From positions 21,217,911 to 21,281,910 of the forward strand of contig OV121085.1 in NCBI GenBank assembly GCA_921293015.1: DNA of 64,000 bases. Direction: 5' to 3'. A model generated the notes under the pieces. The model had not been told where the DNA came from. It made no database searches and worked only from the letters and a program-made list of their open reading frames with translations. Every line of letters starts with the position of its first letter. The first letter of the stretch is position 1. This stretch comes from Phorcus lineatus (lineage: Eukaryota; Mollusca; Gastropoda; Trochida; Trochidae). Of the stretch, positions 25,496 through 63,841 are shown piece by piece. The position numbers and the translations under genes were made by a program.

Positions 25496-25718
25496 CTGTG
25501 TATTTTTCACCTGGCCGATATTTCGTCACATCTTCCTCGGTGTCGCTCTCAACTATAATTTTAAATCCATGTTTTCCACTTGATTTGGGATCGCTAGTGT
25601 GTTCTGGTACTCTTTGACATATACGCTTATCAGCATCACCAAAGGATCTATCCACACGTGCTAGAAACAGTAGCACCAAAACACAGGTGAATGCAGGTAA
25701 TCCTTTAATTCTCGCCAT
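25496..25718 (-). CDS. SPON1: F-spondin (spondin-1)-like, first coding exon
   Basis: The exon encodes 74 residues plus one base, starting at MARIKGLPAF. Residues 1-26 form a signal peptide: a basic start, then a hydrophobic core CVLVLLFLA, with a likely cut near Ser25-Phe26 or just after. The mature part has an ICQRVP motif, the segment DPKSSGKHGFKIIVE and then KYRPGEKYT. This is the N-terminal half of a Reeler domain: first Cys, GFKI strand, and Y-x-PG-x-x-Y strand, in the arrangement usual for secreted, matrix-associated F-spondins. The exon ends in ACAG followed by the consensus donor GTAAGT, leaving phase 1. A GTG one codon upstream is not needed; the ATG at 25718 gives the clean signal peptide. 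The spondin domain and thrombospondin repeats expected downstream were not found in the window, so the other exons are probably far away. Another Reeler protein is possible but fits less well. Confidence 0.7.
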
Positions 25719-27019: not shown

Positions 27020-27295
27020 TCATCGTTATAATCATTATCATAATCTTGATCATCGTCGTCGTAATCATCATCACCATCGTCATCATCACCATCATCATCA
27101 CCATCATCATCACCACCATAAGAATTAGCAGCAGCAGTAGCATAATCAGTATAATCATAATAAAAATCATCATCATCTTCTCCATCATCATCACCATCAT
27201 CACCATCATCATCACCATCATAAGAATCAGCAGCAGCAGCAGCAGTAGCATAATCAGTATAATCATAATAAAAATCATCATCATCATCTCCATCT
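27020..27295. repeat. Compound CAT/ATC/AGC trinucleotide array with internal duplication
   Basis: Interrupted CAT/ATC triplets alternate with AGCAGCAGC blocks. A segment containing TAATCAGTATAATCATAATA occurs at 27143 and again at 27251, so a block of about 105 bp was duplicated. Both strands stay open for over 110 codons simply because the triplet contains no stop, so no protein is called. Confidence 0.9.
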
Positions 27296-29239: not shown

Positions 29240-29258
29240 TTGTTAATTACTACTACTA

Positions 29259-29319
<61 letters not shown>

Positions 29320-29816
29320 CACTACTACTACTAGTACTACTACTACAGCCACCACTACTACTACTACTACTACAACCACTACTACTACTACCACCACCAC
29401 CACTACAACTACTACTACTGCCACTACTACTACCACTAACACTACTACTACTACTTCTGTTGCTACTACTAGTACTACTACTACTACTACTTCTGATACT
29501 ACTACTGCCACTACTACTACCACTAACACTACTACTACTACTTCTGTTGTTGCTACTACTAGTACTACTGCTACTGCTGCTGCTACTACTTCTGTTGCTA
29601 CTACTACTACTACTACTGCTAGTGCTGCTGTTGCTACTACTTCTGCTGCTACTACTAGTACTCTTTTTTTTACTTCTACCGTTGCTAGTGGTTATATGAC
29701 TTCCACTATACTCCTACTGTTACTGCTATTGCTGCTGCTGATACTATCTACTACTACTGCTACTATTAATCTTACTGCTTCTTCTTCTGCAACTACCACT
29801 ACTACTGCAGTAGTCA
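29240..29816. repeat. Long interrupted (ACT)n microsatellite
   Basis: Nearly 580 bp of ACT/CTA triplets. The first part is nearly pure, then increasingly broken by TTCTGTTG, AGTACT and GCTGCT variants towards the 3' end. Three frames remain open over long distances and read poly-Thr, poly-Leu or poly-Val. These are artefacts of the triplet. Confidence 0.95.
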
Positions 29817-30497: not shown

Positions 30498-32662
30498 GTA
30501 TGTACCTTGAAAACACTAAGCAAAACCGCTATCTAAATAGATAAGGAGTATTTTCCTTTTAATACTTCAACAGAGCGTGGTGATAACAGATTTATTTTTT
30601 GTGTTCTTTGTGATATTGACTTGGCCCGACAAGAGAAATTATATCAAAATCAAAACTTTAGTTGACTTAAACTTAAATAATTTTATTCATATCAATTGTG
30701 TATTTTAAGATCACACAGTCATAATTATGACTCAAATTATTGGCTGGTAACTTTGTTGAGAGCGCGTTAAAAGATGATACTGGAGCACAAATCTATTTTT
30801 GAAAAGTTCGATATTAATATAAATAAAATTAAGTTAAAATATTATAAAGATATTAAAAATCTAATTTAATACTTTATTAGAATAAAAGAGCCATGGTATA
30901 TGTATTGAATTATATTTTGCTGAAAATCTATTCCCGTTAATATTTGAATTTTGCAGGGTGGCCTTCAAAATTAGAAAATGGTATTTGGTAATTAATTTAT
31001 AAGATATTCATGAACCAGGTCAAATTTAAATGCAGCTTTAGGAACTTGTTAAATGGATGGGTTGATATGGAACTAGACATCGTATAATCAGTTCTGTCTT
31101 TTCTCAAAAATGACCATCTCCAAAAGCAAAACCTTGAACAAGTTTGTTTACGAAAGTGATGCGTATTTATAGAATTGGTTTAATAGCCGTTAGATCTTGT
31201 ACACTGTAGACATTAATTTTATTTATTTCCGTAGAACCACGACCCGTCACCAGCATGCCTTCAAGGTGTGCTCAAGACACCATCCATCACTCGATACAGT
31301 AGCTCAAACAACCGGAGTTGTAATATATCATTGGCTTAACAATCAAAAGAACTTTTCTCGTTTGATAGAAAACTTGCGGTTTGAATTGAATTTCCACCAA
31401 CATATTTTGAAATGCTGACTAAAATTAAAAGCATAAACGCAAATAAGGTGATGTTATTATATAGTAACTCGAATGGGGTCACCGTGATGATTTTAAAGTT
31501 GTGTGTCAAGGAGTTATTTAACCGAGTACGGAACGAGAACTTCCATGTATATTACAACGTTATGATTTGCATTGATCTTCACAGTGCTTAAAATACTTTA
31601 CTCACTATTGCGTTATAACCAATACTTGGGACAGAATGAGCTGGGTATTTTTGTGGTCAAGAAATGGATACGTGTCCATTTATTCTTTCAATAGATGGTT
31701 AACACACTGTCCATTTTCTTATTGCTTCGGGCCTTTTTTATAGTAAATTTCTTACCATAAAACGAATTTCGTTTTAACTACAATGCCCCTGTCGTATCGT
31801 AACTGAATATATAAAGACAAAACAAACATATGTGTACGTAAGGTATTGACAACAGTAAGATGTAGACTGACTATCATCGATCGCCTACAACGTTTAACAC
31901 GGACTGCCTTTGTTTCCCAGAAACCAACAGCTAAGCGATTGAAGATACAATTATAAAGAGATTAACCTTTCGTAAGAATCAAAGCTCAACAAAGCTACGT
32001 TTTCTTTGTAACATGAAAAATCTTTAACTTGTCATAAGTGTTCGGCTCCGGTACAGTCATGTGATGTTATATTATAGATAAATAAACCGGGTGTCCATCG
32101 GACACATACGCATTGTATTGGAATTAAGAATGGAAACAGTTGAGGTAGAAGTTTGGAAATGAAGTTGAATTCCATCATGTATTAATGAATTTTGAATTTG
32201 TCAAAAACGTGAAGGCCTAAATGCGCTTTTGGTTTACTTTATGTTGAAGTGATAATGGTCACTAGTGTTCATATTAATTTTGCCATTTGTCTTTTCAGGC
32301 ATTATCATTTATCTCCTTCTATGACGTCATAGAACAATTAACCATGGTGCAACTTACGCGGGTCATTTCAAGCATGGGCAATTAAATAGATCTAATCTAC
32401 TCTTAGTTAGATTGTCTCTGTTTGAAAAGAAGACTGTCTTTGTAATATTTTAAGTGACACGTTCCTTGAACAGTATGAACAGAAGAATCCTTACCACTTA
32501 AGATCTGTTTTACTATAACGGCTACGGGTTTTTCTACTATCAATTTTACAAAACATTCTACGCAATAAGTTTATAACGGACAGTAATTTCATCAAAAAAC
32601 GAGAATGATTTTCAAACAAAGCCTAAAAATCACCCCGTTTATTTATCTATAACCACCAGGAT

Positions 32663-32745
32663 GGTTTTAGCAGCCAGTTGAGCCCTCTAATGGGTCAGTT
32701 CACTGTGTGCTGATCCATTAAAGGGTTCAGCTGGTTACTTAAACC
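32663..32745 (+). ncRNA. Precursor-microRNA-like hairpin, no known family recognised
   Basis: Two 36-nt arms (32663-32698 and 32710-32745) pair without a single bulge around an 11-nt loop. I count 29 Watson-Crick pairs, 4 G-U wobbles and 3 mismatches. The arms start GGTTTTAGCAGCCAG and end CTGGTTACTTAAACC. Four of the non-canonical positions are G-U on the plus strand but would be A-C on the minus strand, which favours plus-strand transcription. Length, symmetry and loop size fit a metazoan precursor. The arms do not match any microRNA seed I can recall. A small palindromic transposon copy is the main alternative, though no target-site duplication is visible. Confidence 0.35.
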
Positions 32746-32878
32746 AAAAGAAACGTGTGTGTGTTAAAATAACGTAACACTACGGCAAAACGTCAGCATC
32801 CGTTCAATTACCGGTTGACCTTAAACTTTCCGCCCCTTTCTCACCAACAATACTGGTCGCTCATAAGCGGTAGTGGAC

Positions 32879-40334: not shown

Positions 40335-40520
40335 CCAATGTCCACTAACGGTCAAAGCATGCTCCATGCACGTTACTTCCCATCACAACGGTCAAGCTTT
40401 GCCCAGTACGCGTTACTGACCGTCACAACGGTCAAGCAATGCTCAACCCGCATAACTGACCACCGTGACGGTCAAGGCATGCGCCAGGCGTATTATTGGA
40501 CATCACAACGGTCAAGCGAG
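40335..40520 (+). repeat. 40-bp tandem minisatellite with inverted TGACCGT/ACGGTCA core
   Basis: ACGGTCAA occurs at 40348, 40388, 40428, 40468 and 40508, an exact 40-bp period over five occurrences. Unit sequence between the cores has diverged, so spacing is better kept than sequence. In the best unit, TGACCGTCACAACGGTCA forms a 7-bp dyad. The period is not a multiple of three, so the overlapping short frames are not a protein repeat. Confidence 0.85.
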
Positions 40521-43016
40521 ACAAGATATTTCAGCACCCAGGAAACTTGTATTCATTGTTGAGGGTCATATTTCTAATTCAGTCATGCCTGAATTGATTG
40601 CTTATCGCCATCAAGGAGAATCAAGTCACGTTCTTGAGACCTTCTGGCTTGGAAGTTGAACGTATATGGCTGATGCAAGTTTTGATAAACTGCAAAAAAC
40701 GCGAAAGAAAACATTGTAGAAAAGCATCTAGAAACTTTTTTAAGTTATTGCGTGGCCACTGTAAAATTACAGGATGCCACTTTTGAACGAAGTATATTTT
40801 TAGATACCTGTGATCAAGCCACGGTAGACCCGCTCACTTCATCAAGGCAAATGAAGCAGTCATGTTTGAAATGTATGTGTTAAGCACTTTCCGATTTAAT
40901 TGAGGGATATTAACATGGCAATAGTGACAGGGAATATGTTGCCAATTTTTCAAAAAAATACTCTTGACACGAGATTTGTATTGTTGTCGTTGTATAGTTC
41001 ATAGACCTAGACAACATGTTTACGGGACGTTTGATTTCGGTTGTCATATTCGACATTTTGGAATGTATATTCAACTAGAGATAATATGAAGTTAAATCAC
41101 ATATCAATCAAAATTAAATTTAAGACAAGAAGGTAACTTTACAATAAGACGTATATAACCAAACAAACAAACTGGTACTGTCTCTTTTAAACAAGCCACT
41201 GTCAGTCTTAAGATTCCCCTTGTCTAAACTCAGAGCAATGGTATCATCCAGTTATTCTAACCCATAACTAGGCCTCAAATGATCCAGCGACGTGAATTGA
41301 GCCGATGATTATACCCTAGGGATGTATATGGGATTACTTACTTTTTATTACTGGTATAAAGTTTCCAATTTGGTTTTGTCTCGAATAAAACTAGTATGTA
41401 TAGAGATGTGGAATGTTTTTCACAATTTAAAGTTTGCATGGAGTCTTGGGTGTTTCATAATCCCTTTAATATAACTCCAATGTTATACTCACGTTTTACC
41501 CATGTTTATTTTCATGCATCATGATTTTACTCACACGTCGTCATATATCTAGAAGGACGTTTAAGCTAAAAAATACTTCAAGGGAATTCATTTCGAGGAC
41601 ACAAAAATACGTGCACCACGATTAAGATATCCAGTTAAAGGTTTATGAAAATAATATCGGATCTTCTCACTTATTTCTATTTGAAAAGTCTAGATTGAAG
41701 TTGACAAGTTATATAGAATTACGAGGAAAACAGATAAAATAATGAATTTATGGAACACTTATTGTAAATACCTGTGTTTCTTTTCAAATAAAAGCAACAC
41801 TGTTATTTGATGTCACGACGCCATGAAAAAAACTATTACCATGAATTCTTATTCGAAATTTGGCGTAGAGAATGTTGTGGGAGTCAAATATGTCAAACTT
41901 TAAAAAGGGTGTTATGATATGGATAACAATTAGTTCTATCTGATAATTTCCATTTGAATGTTTCTCACTCGAAAAAGTCGTGATTTGTGATCTAAAACCG
42001 GATAGTGACACATGCCAACGACTCAAACATAAATTTGGAAACTTATTTACAGACACAAAGACTAATATGGCTTGGTAGTCTTTGGAATATTAATTAATTG
42101 TTATACAAGCACAAAGTGCGTAGAAATTCGACCTCGTAACATATAAATTTTTTGTCATTTTAGTGATGAAAATGCAATTTTTGCGACGTGATTTGAACTT
42201 CATGCAGGAATATGGTATTTTGACTATTATCTAACAACATAAAAAATTATGAAACGCACTCTGTGGGTTAATATTGGTCTACAAACTTCATACAGTCACA
42301 GAAGACTCCACACTATTTTTAGAGCTTTGAGTTTGTTCTCCATGTTGCTGCTATATTTAGCAACTGACAAATCCTCCTTCTGTTGTGGAGGGCAATGTGA
42401 TCTTAAACTTCCAGGTTTCCAAGAAATATTCCGAGATCAATTATTTCTGCGTTTGTAAAAAAAAATTAAATTAAAGTATAAGATAACGATATTAGGACTG
42501 TTTTGATTCTGCCTTTTTCTTAAAACTCTACTGTTAGAAATGTTTCTACCTTTAAAAGCCTTACTATCTCATTTGAAAGCAGCTTCGGCAAGGTAGCGGT
42601 ATCTTGTCACACTTACGTAACGTCACCTAGATGGCGTATTTCCACCTACAGCAGGTGTAAACGAGCCCTTACCCGTGACCCATCACCTCTCCAGAGCCAG
42701 CGAGACTCAGATGAATGATAACCCGGGGAGGTCAAAGTGTTCTTCAACCACTATCTCTGATAATGCAGTCAACTGCATTGACTTTAGCACGTACGGAATC
42801 CTGGGTCGTCTTCGGTAGTTTCACTCTTGTTAAAGATGAGCAAACACTCTATCAGAGGTCCTCCAGGGAACAGGGACATGTATTGTCGAAAACAACAGTT
42901 TCAGTCTATAAAACAACTGGAGTCGACCATCAAGCATATAAAAAGTAAGAGGATGTAACAGAGTCAAAACTCCAAGTCTTTGATTTTAAGAAAAATTGTT
43001 TCCGACACATAAGCCT

Positions 43017-51363: not shown

Positions 51364-51618
51364 TCATGATTCAAATTCTGAAATGAAAATTCCCTGTAAT
51401 GCATCAATGTCTCCACGTATTGGGTCCAGCTTAACTAATAACTCTGATTCTGTACACTCACGATGAGCGGGGGATTCAGGGGGGACAGGTGACATGTACC
51501 CCTCGGGACATGCTCTAGGTTTCGTTATAACGCCATGCTGATACGATGTCCTGTCATCCTTGGGTCTTGAGAAAGAACTGCACATCAGGGTTTCCCATGC
51601 TTTAAAGCGACGCGTCAT
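51364..51618 (-). CDS. Candidate terminal exon, unidentified protein C-terminus
   Basis: The minus-strand frame reads MTRRFKAWETLMCSSFSRPK, then a Pro/Arg-rich stretch (ITKPRACPEGYMSPVPPES), then ESELLVKLDPIRGDIDALQG and the ending IFISEFES before TGA. Residue composition is balanced, GC is above the surroundings, and the last 30 residues look like an amphipathic, structured C-terminus. Acceptor-like TTCTTTCTCAAG lies inside at about 51558, so the exon may start there rather than at the ATG. TTTATT at 51193-51198 provides a minus-strand AATAAA about 170 bp downstream. The ATG abuts an AGAGTCAC minisatellite, so the upstream part may be repeat-derived. No family is recognised. Confidence 0.4.
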   Translation of the reverse strand: MTRRFKAWETLMCSSFSRPKDDRTSYQHGVITKPRACPEGYMSPVPPESPAHRECTESELLVKLDPIRGDIDALQGIFISEFES

Positions 51619-51812
51619 AGAGTCACAGAGTCAAAGAGTCGTGAGTGATAGAGTCACATAATCACAGAGTCGTGAGTGACAGGGTCACAGAGTCACAGAG
51701 TCGTGAGTCACAGAGTCACAGAGTCACAGAGTCGTTAGTCACAGAGTCACAGAGTCACAGAGTCGTGAGTCACAGAGTCACAGAGTCGTGAGTCACAGAG
51801 TCAGAGAGTGTC
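51618..51812. repeat. AGAGTCAC minisatellite with higher-order AGAGTCGTG variant
   Basis: Tandem AGAGTCAC octamers are punctuated by AGAGTCGTG every two to four units, giving a higher-order structure. Identity between units is high in the 51670-51800 part and falls towards 51618-51670. The array ends about at the start of the 51.4 kb candidate exon. Confidence 0.92.
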
Positions 51813-61870: not shown

Positions 61871-63030
61871 ACGATGGACATTTTCTATAGGGTCCTTTCA
61901 ACGCTTCATATGCATGTGGATGTAATGATTCATGCAAAACATAAAATGGTAGAAAGTTTTGGAACAAGGGGAATAGAGAGGTAGCTATTGTCATTTCACA
62001 TTTCACACAATGGCTCAATAATAAACTAGTATCATGGTCGCAAGTGATCGCTAGAGAAAAACAATCTTGTTGAAGATATATCGTTATCCCTTTCATCTCT
62101 TTTATGTACATTGGAGGCAAGCCCGAAACATAATGAATTATGATGAGTGAAAGTAGAGACAAAGAATTGATGTTTTAAAGTAAACCATAATTCATAATCT
62201 TTTCATTTCTCGAAATATTAATTTATTTTTTAAAAATCAAACTTTTCGAATCTCAATGCATTTGAAGTATTTTTTAAATTTTATAGTTCTCTGGCTGCCG
62301 GCCAATGACCCTATGGCGCTTAGTGCTTATGTCCAGGCAAAGGGGTGAATGGTTTGAAGCATTAATGGCAAAAGAAAGATAAAGAAACTGACATTAGCAA
62401 TGTGTTGATTGATGTTGACCTATCGTGGTTGCGTACTAAACCATATGTGTAAACATATGAAACTATAATCTTATCAGCGTTTACCATACGCTTATTTGCT
62501 TTTTTCTAATAATTGGTGTTTCTAATGTAAACCTATTTAACAATTTCGTTGAATTATTCACCACATCATCAGCAAGAATGCTAATTGAAGACGACAGTTC
62601 TAAAGAACGTTGAGGGGAGGTTTCATGCGAAGGAAGTTTAAACAACATATTCAAAAATATTTTCAAATTATTATGAAAGTGTCACACAATACTGTCTCAG
62701 TGTTATTCACGCACGGAATCCTCTTTATCCTAAATCCTTCTAAGTACCTGTCACAATATCAATGCTCTCAAACGCCATATTTAATTAATGTAATTTTTCG
62801 TTCTTCTCGACCAAAGACTTACATTATTGCTCCCGTGTCGGGGCGGTTTGAAGATGGGCCGTCTGTCAATAAAGTAAGTCATCGAATAAATACTACGGCT
62901 CCCAACACGCCAGGTGAGAGAAAGAAATAAGTTGGTAGGGTGCCCTTAAAGCTTACCCCCCGCCGTTACCCCTTCACGCGCTGGGGACTGTGTTAGAGGT
63001 TGAAATGGTATTGCCTAAAAGTTATCGTGT
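61870..63030. other. Noncoding stretch
   Basis: No gene is recognised. A 106-codon frame at 62610-62930 has no domain or splice support; its last third is GC-richer. Confidence 0.35.
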
Positions 63031-63489: not shown

Positions 63490-63841
63490 TGCCTTATTTG
63501 TCGCATGTGATTAATATGACCGAGATTCGAGGTGAAAATATGTAGAAAAAGTCAAAGGAGCATGTTCCAATGCCATGCATTCGGAAACCCTCGGGATTAC
63601 TGACACAAGACGAGCTACACCGAAAACAAATGATGATGATTAATTTGCCAGCGATTTCAATTGAAAACATGTACAAAAAGTCAAATGAGCAAGTTCCGAG
63701 TGGATTCATTCGGAAACTCTCGGGGTTATTGAACCGACCGGTATTGGCGAAAACAATGATTAAGCATTTTGAGTGTGGAATAATTCATGAGAAGAACGAT
63801 GTCCTGAATGCTTCTTTATTGAGATATCCACGTTACACTTA
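63490..63841 (+). repeat. In-frame 129-bp (43-codon) direct repeat with open reading frame
   Basis: Two units start near 63510 and 63639 with 129-bp spacing. Translated in one frame, unit 1 reads ENM-stop-KKSKEHVPMPCIRK then PSGLL. Unit 2 reads ENMYKKSNEQVPSGFIRK then LSGLL. The frame is shared and alignment needs no indel, but unit 1 has a TAG where unit 2 has TAC. After unit 1's stop, the frame stays open for about 98 codons to TAA at 63841. The minus strand is also open over most of both units (GTCSFDF repeated), so coding direction is uncertain. It may be a relic of a repetitive protein, a repeat expansion inside a mobile element, or a noncoding minisatellite whose unit happens to be a multiple of three. 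Confidence 0.6.

Follow-up and report, generated by a model that had tools for sequence, protein, structure and literature searches.

Does the hairpin at positions 32662–32746 of the 64-kb window (i.e., the whole stretch of DNA that was analyzed) represent a microRNA precursor, or a palindrome of some other origin?

Structure and stability of the hairpin

The original prediction was of an 83-nt hairpin, and its coordinates and pair counts proved exact on recount. Between the arms at 32663–32698 and 32710–32745, the 36 paired positions comprise 29 Watson-Crick pairs, 4 G-U pairs (32673/32735, 32678/32730, 32682/32726 and 32694/32714) and 3 mismatches, i.e., one U-U (32668/32740) and two C-A (32671/32737 and 32687/32721), without a single bulge. 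With an extra pair, T32662-A32746, the stem reaches 37 bp and the whole structure 85 bp; outward of this pair, the next 8 positions showed no pairing. As defined by the fold and by the pairing count, the hairpin, given here in plus-strand orientation, consists of this 37-bp stem and an 11-nt loop; the pairing count places the 5′ arm at 32662–32698, the loop, which contains UGUG, at 32699–32709, and the 3′ arm at 32710–32746. The G+C content of the hairpin is 46% versus 35% in the 1-kb flanks, while the window as a whole has a G+C content of 34% and a CpG observed/expected ratio of 0.74. This composition, the overall appearance of the sequence and a splice-like end of one exon candidate suggest that the DNA is from an animal.

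Comparison of the fold energy with that of shuffled sequence bore the prediction out. The 83-nt plus-strand RNA had an energy of −50.8 kcal/mol, while its shuffles averaged −20.07 (SD 3.21), which gives a z score of −9.57; none of 200 shuffles was as good. The prediction had also held that nothing in the surrounding sequence was comparable, and this was upheld by a scan of both strands in 8,522 windows (90 nt, step 15), in which the hairpin ranked first; the runner-up, at 40396–40485 on the minus strand, reached −41.2. A further hairpin candidate, at 62890–62990 on the minus strand, was no better than shuffles (z = −0.48). With G-U pairs allowed, the ungapped inverted-repeat score was 26.5, versus maxima of no more than 20.0 (mean 15.7) in 200 dinucleotide shuffles of the whole window. 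With Watson-Crick pairs only, the score was 16, and the maxima of 200 shuffles had a mean of 12.7 and a largest value of 20. In this shuffle comparison, the value for the window itself was obtained after masking an (AT)n tract. The hairpin is a real structure, and it is beyond chance, though the inverted-repeat statistic depends on the wobbles.

A transition in a palindrome produces a G-U pair on one strand and an A-C mismatch on the other. On this basis the original prediction argued that the wobble pattern favored the plus strand, a claim that found no statistical support: there are 4 G-U against 2 C-A pairs on the plus strand (one-sided p = 0.34), and the chance of at least 4 G-U among the 7 differences between the arms is 0.07–0.17 at assumed rates of 0.25–0.33. 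The minus-strand RNA of the hairpin also folds well (−40.2 kcal/mol, z = −8.15, with 0 of 200 shuffles as good). The wobbles lean weakly toward the plus strand, without deciding the matter. The same 4:2 ratio is what would be expected for neutral transitions, as in a chance local inverted duplication that has no function, is now matched at about 80% of positions, and is decaying. However, a neutral origin predicts no specific stem length, and the length and abrupt ends of the stem suit either a pri-microRNA or an element of the Made1 type better than an arbitrary duplication. We regard such an origin as improbable.

Comparison with microRNA precursors

The resemblance to a microRNA precursor proposed in the original prediction is genuine, in that the hairpin has the geometry of a pri-microRNA and matches some of the Microprocessor motifs. 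Our first reading, to which we give a little short of an even chance, is that it is a microRNA-type gene on the plus strand, probably specific to its lineage; the fold is what we observe, and the rest we infer. The likelihoods attached to this and to the competing readings are our judgements, and were not obtained by computation.

If the hairpin is a microRNA gene, a primary transcript would be made from the plus strand, and Drosha/DGCR8 would count off about 13–14 bp from the abrupt base of the stem at 32662/32746, cutting near 32676 and 32734. Dicer would take off the 11-nt loop, and one arm would be loaded into Argonaute, with repression of messages matching its seed. From the geometry, the predicted products are a 22-nt 5p species at 32676–32697 and a 22-nt 3p species at 32713–32734 (both on the plus strand); the 3′ end of the latter would extend 2 nt beyond the predicted start of the 5p species. 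Animal microRNAs are recognized by reads from both arms whose 5′ ends are fixed and whose 3′ ends overhang by 2 nt.

For human Microprocessor, helpful elements are a UG about 14–13 nt upstream of the cleavage site, a UGU at the apex, a CNNC 16–18 nt downstream, and a mGHG in the lower stem; mismatches or wobbles at positions 10–12 of the upper stem are also helpful, blocking unproductive cuts, whereas those at positions 4–8 inhibit cleavage. If the 5p product begins at 32676, the stem of the hairpin divides as 14+23, the UG at its base (32662–32663) would lie at −14/−13, and upper-stem positions 12 and 7 hold a C-A mismatch and a G-U pair, respectively. A 5p product beginning at 32675 would divide the stem as 13+24 and leave the UG one base out of register; wobbles would then occupy positions 4 and 8, and a mismatch position 13. 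A C-A mismatch also occurs at −5. These features come cheaply by chance: a UG in any of three registers would be found in 19% of cases, a UGU or GUG in 22% of the 11-mers of the window, and a non-Watson-Crick pair within a specified set of three positions in 49%. In our judgement, the Microprocessor motifs taken together favor a microRNA mildly.

The hairpin shares with a canonical animal pri-microRNA a single stable stem of suitable length (37 bp, compared with an optimum of about 35 bp, or 13+22, in PMC7174388), a short loop, unpaired flanks directly outside, a basal UG, a UGU/GUG in the loop, and a mid-stem mismatch. It differs in having no CNNC at 16–18 nt downstream, in the wobbles within the seed zone, and in lacking a known family. 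The microRNA reading is supported by the stable bulge-free fold, by the abrupt ends of the 37-bp stem, and by the UG, the UGU/GUG and the position-12 mismatch, as well as by a G+C content higher than in the flanks and by the presence of one copy in 64 kb. It is weakened by the failure to match an Rfam family at threshold, the missing CNNC, the seed-zone wobbles, the ease with which the motifs arise by chance, the non-significant excess of G-U over C-A, the stability of the minus strand, and the abundance of hairpins in genomes. A typical vertebrate genome contains 10^5 to 10^6 hairpins, mostly of transposable elements, according to PMC3495686.

At gathering thresholds, Rfam gave no matches anywhere in the window. 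In a permissive Rfam scan of 291 bases there were 10 matches up to an E value of 10, all below threshold, of which 8 lay over the hairpin. The best of these was mir-622, which scored 19.2 bits where its gathering score is 86; the best sub-threshold structure matches (mir-622, mir-588, mir-224 and mir-1537) scored 17.8–19.2 bits, against gathering scores of 63–86, and a generic stem-loop would be expected to match such families at that level. Since the gathering threshold was never reached, we do not assign the hairpin to a known Rfam microRNA family. The 5′ arm had seemed to us to resemble miR-22/miR-745, and this resemblance was dropped because neither family was among the 10 permissive matches. 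Twelve strings from the arms, six of 15–16 nt and six of 11–12 nt (in each set four from the plus and two from the minus strand), had no match in the main text of 5.39 million papers. Many microRNA sequences sit in supplementary tables, which were outside that search, and the negative result is therefore no proof that the arm sequence is unpublished. An exact 22-nt stretch from each arm gave 0 matches in viral contigs, a result of little weight as these are not expected to contain animal DNA. ARAGORN (bacterial code) found no tRNA. A mirtron was rejected because, by eye, the hairpin ends at no splice sites: no consensus donor surrounds the GT at 32664, and no pyrimidine tract precedes the AG at 32749–32750.

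Should it be a microRNA, this would be one gene more in a well-known class, and lineage-specific microRNAs are of interest chiefly as sets. PMC9699675 reports 90 novel microRNA families in octopus, and novel families were there required to be present in a second species.

A palindromic MITE as the main rival

As a candidate the hairpin is well formed and unexceptional, with the odds on a microRNA about even, and its main rival is a palindromic MITE. According to that alternative, which we consider a serious though not the leading possibility, it would be an old copy of a short element of the Made1 type with diverged arms, and any small RNAs would be by-products. The human MITE Made1 measures 80 bp, with two inverted repeats of 37 bp separated by 6 bp, and copies of it were the source of hsa-mir-548 (PMC1784062). 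The hairpin, with 37-bp arms and an 11-nt spacer in 85 bp, has a similar geometry, and its inverted repeats cover nearly the whole unit, as expected of a palindromic MITE. Compared by geometry alone, it shares with Made1/hsa-mir-548 the 37-bp arms, a short spacer, a total of 80–85 bp and a near-perfect palindrome. Because the geometry of Made1 nearly equals that of the hairpin, geometry cannot separate a microRNA from a MITE. Other points in favor of a MITE are that transitions account for 6 of the 7 arm differences, as in a decaying palindrome, and that many mis-annotated human pre-microRNAs are MITEs (97 of 253, 65 of those being Made1, in PMC3495686).

Unlike Made1/hsa-mir-548, however, the hairpin has no TA at its ends and no second copy within the 64-kb window, although a window of this size is a small sample and the test is a weak one. 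The best flanking direct repeat was 5 bp in length, lay partly within the right arm, and was equalled at 322 of 1000 random places; this counts against a MITE, but the test for a target-site duplication is also weak, since the duplication may have disappeared from an old copy. If the hairpin is a MITE, it would provide a clean case against naming a microRNA from hairpin shape alone. The two origins could also be combined, and we suggest tentatively that the hairpin belongs to a microRNA family confined to the animal lineage concerned, with arms unlike those of described microRNAs, and possibly derived from a palindromic transposon, as with hsa-mir-548 and Made1.

The proximity of a possible separate MITE is a further point on the side of a transposon origin. 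A 581-bp stretch at 32072–32652 is delimited by a pair of inverted 22-bp repeats that agree at 21 of their 22 positions, with TA adjoining the ends; it stops nine bases left of the hairpin, which it does not include. This was the only repeat pair with at least 20/22 matches at spans of 61–2,000 bp, the other two listed being one-base shifts of it, and the stretch may be a separate MITE.

Neighboring ORFs and repeats

None of the 51 ORFs of at least 80 amino acids in the window overlapped the hairpin. When 18 stretches, from 17 different ORFs of the 51, were compared with Pfam, there were just weak matches to RBD, Cu_bind_CorA and ApbA, all below curated cut-offs. An exon-like ORF on the minus strand, at about 25496–25718, has an ATG at 25718 (6.9 kb from the hairpin), a signal-peptide-like start, and CAG/GTAAGT after 25496. 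It looks like the start of a reeler/F-spondin-type protein, an identity that received no support from Pfam. Nor did comparison with the PDB support it: one search gave no match up to an E value of 1, and another a single, unrelated match at E = 1.2. Scanning for motifs of further exons likewise did not bear the identity out.

The region around 40.4 kb, which contains the runner-up in the energy scan, is built at 40384–40517 from tandemly repeated units, each about 40 bp long, among which a 14-base core has three exact copies (at 40384, 40424 and 40504). As minus-strand RNA, stretches of 40340–40530 had energies of −33 to −56 kcal/mol, and for 40395–40480 the z score was −4.71, with 1 of 200 shuffles as good. 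The region also gave a weak match to mir-2001 (20.9 bits, against a threshold of 74). It was rejected as a second microRNA hairpin, and we read it instead as a foldback within the tandem units.

Other repeats in the window are two trinucleotide arrays, at 29248–29662 (TAC unit, 138 copies, 80% match) and 27020–27288 (TCA unit, 90 copies, 71% match), an array of a 31-bp unit at 51614–51787 (5.6 copies, 91% match), and two 96-bp direct copies, at 63508–63603 and 63637–63732, that are 78% identical.
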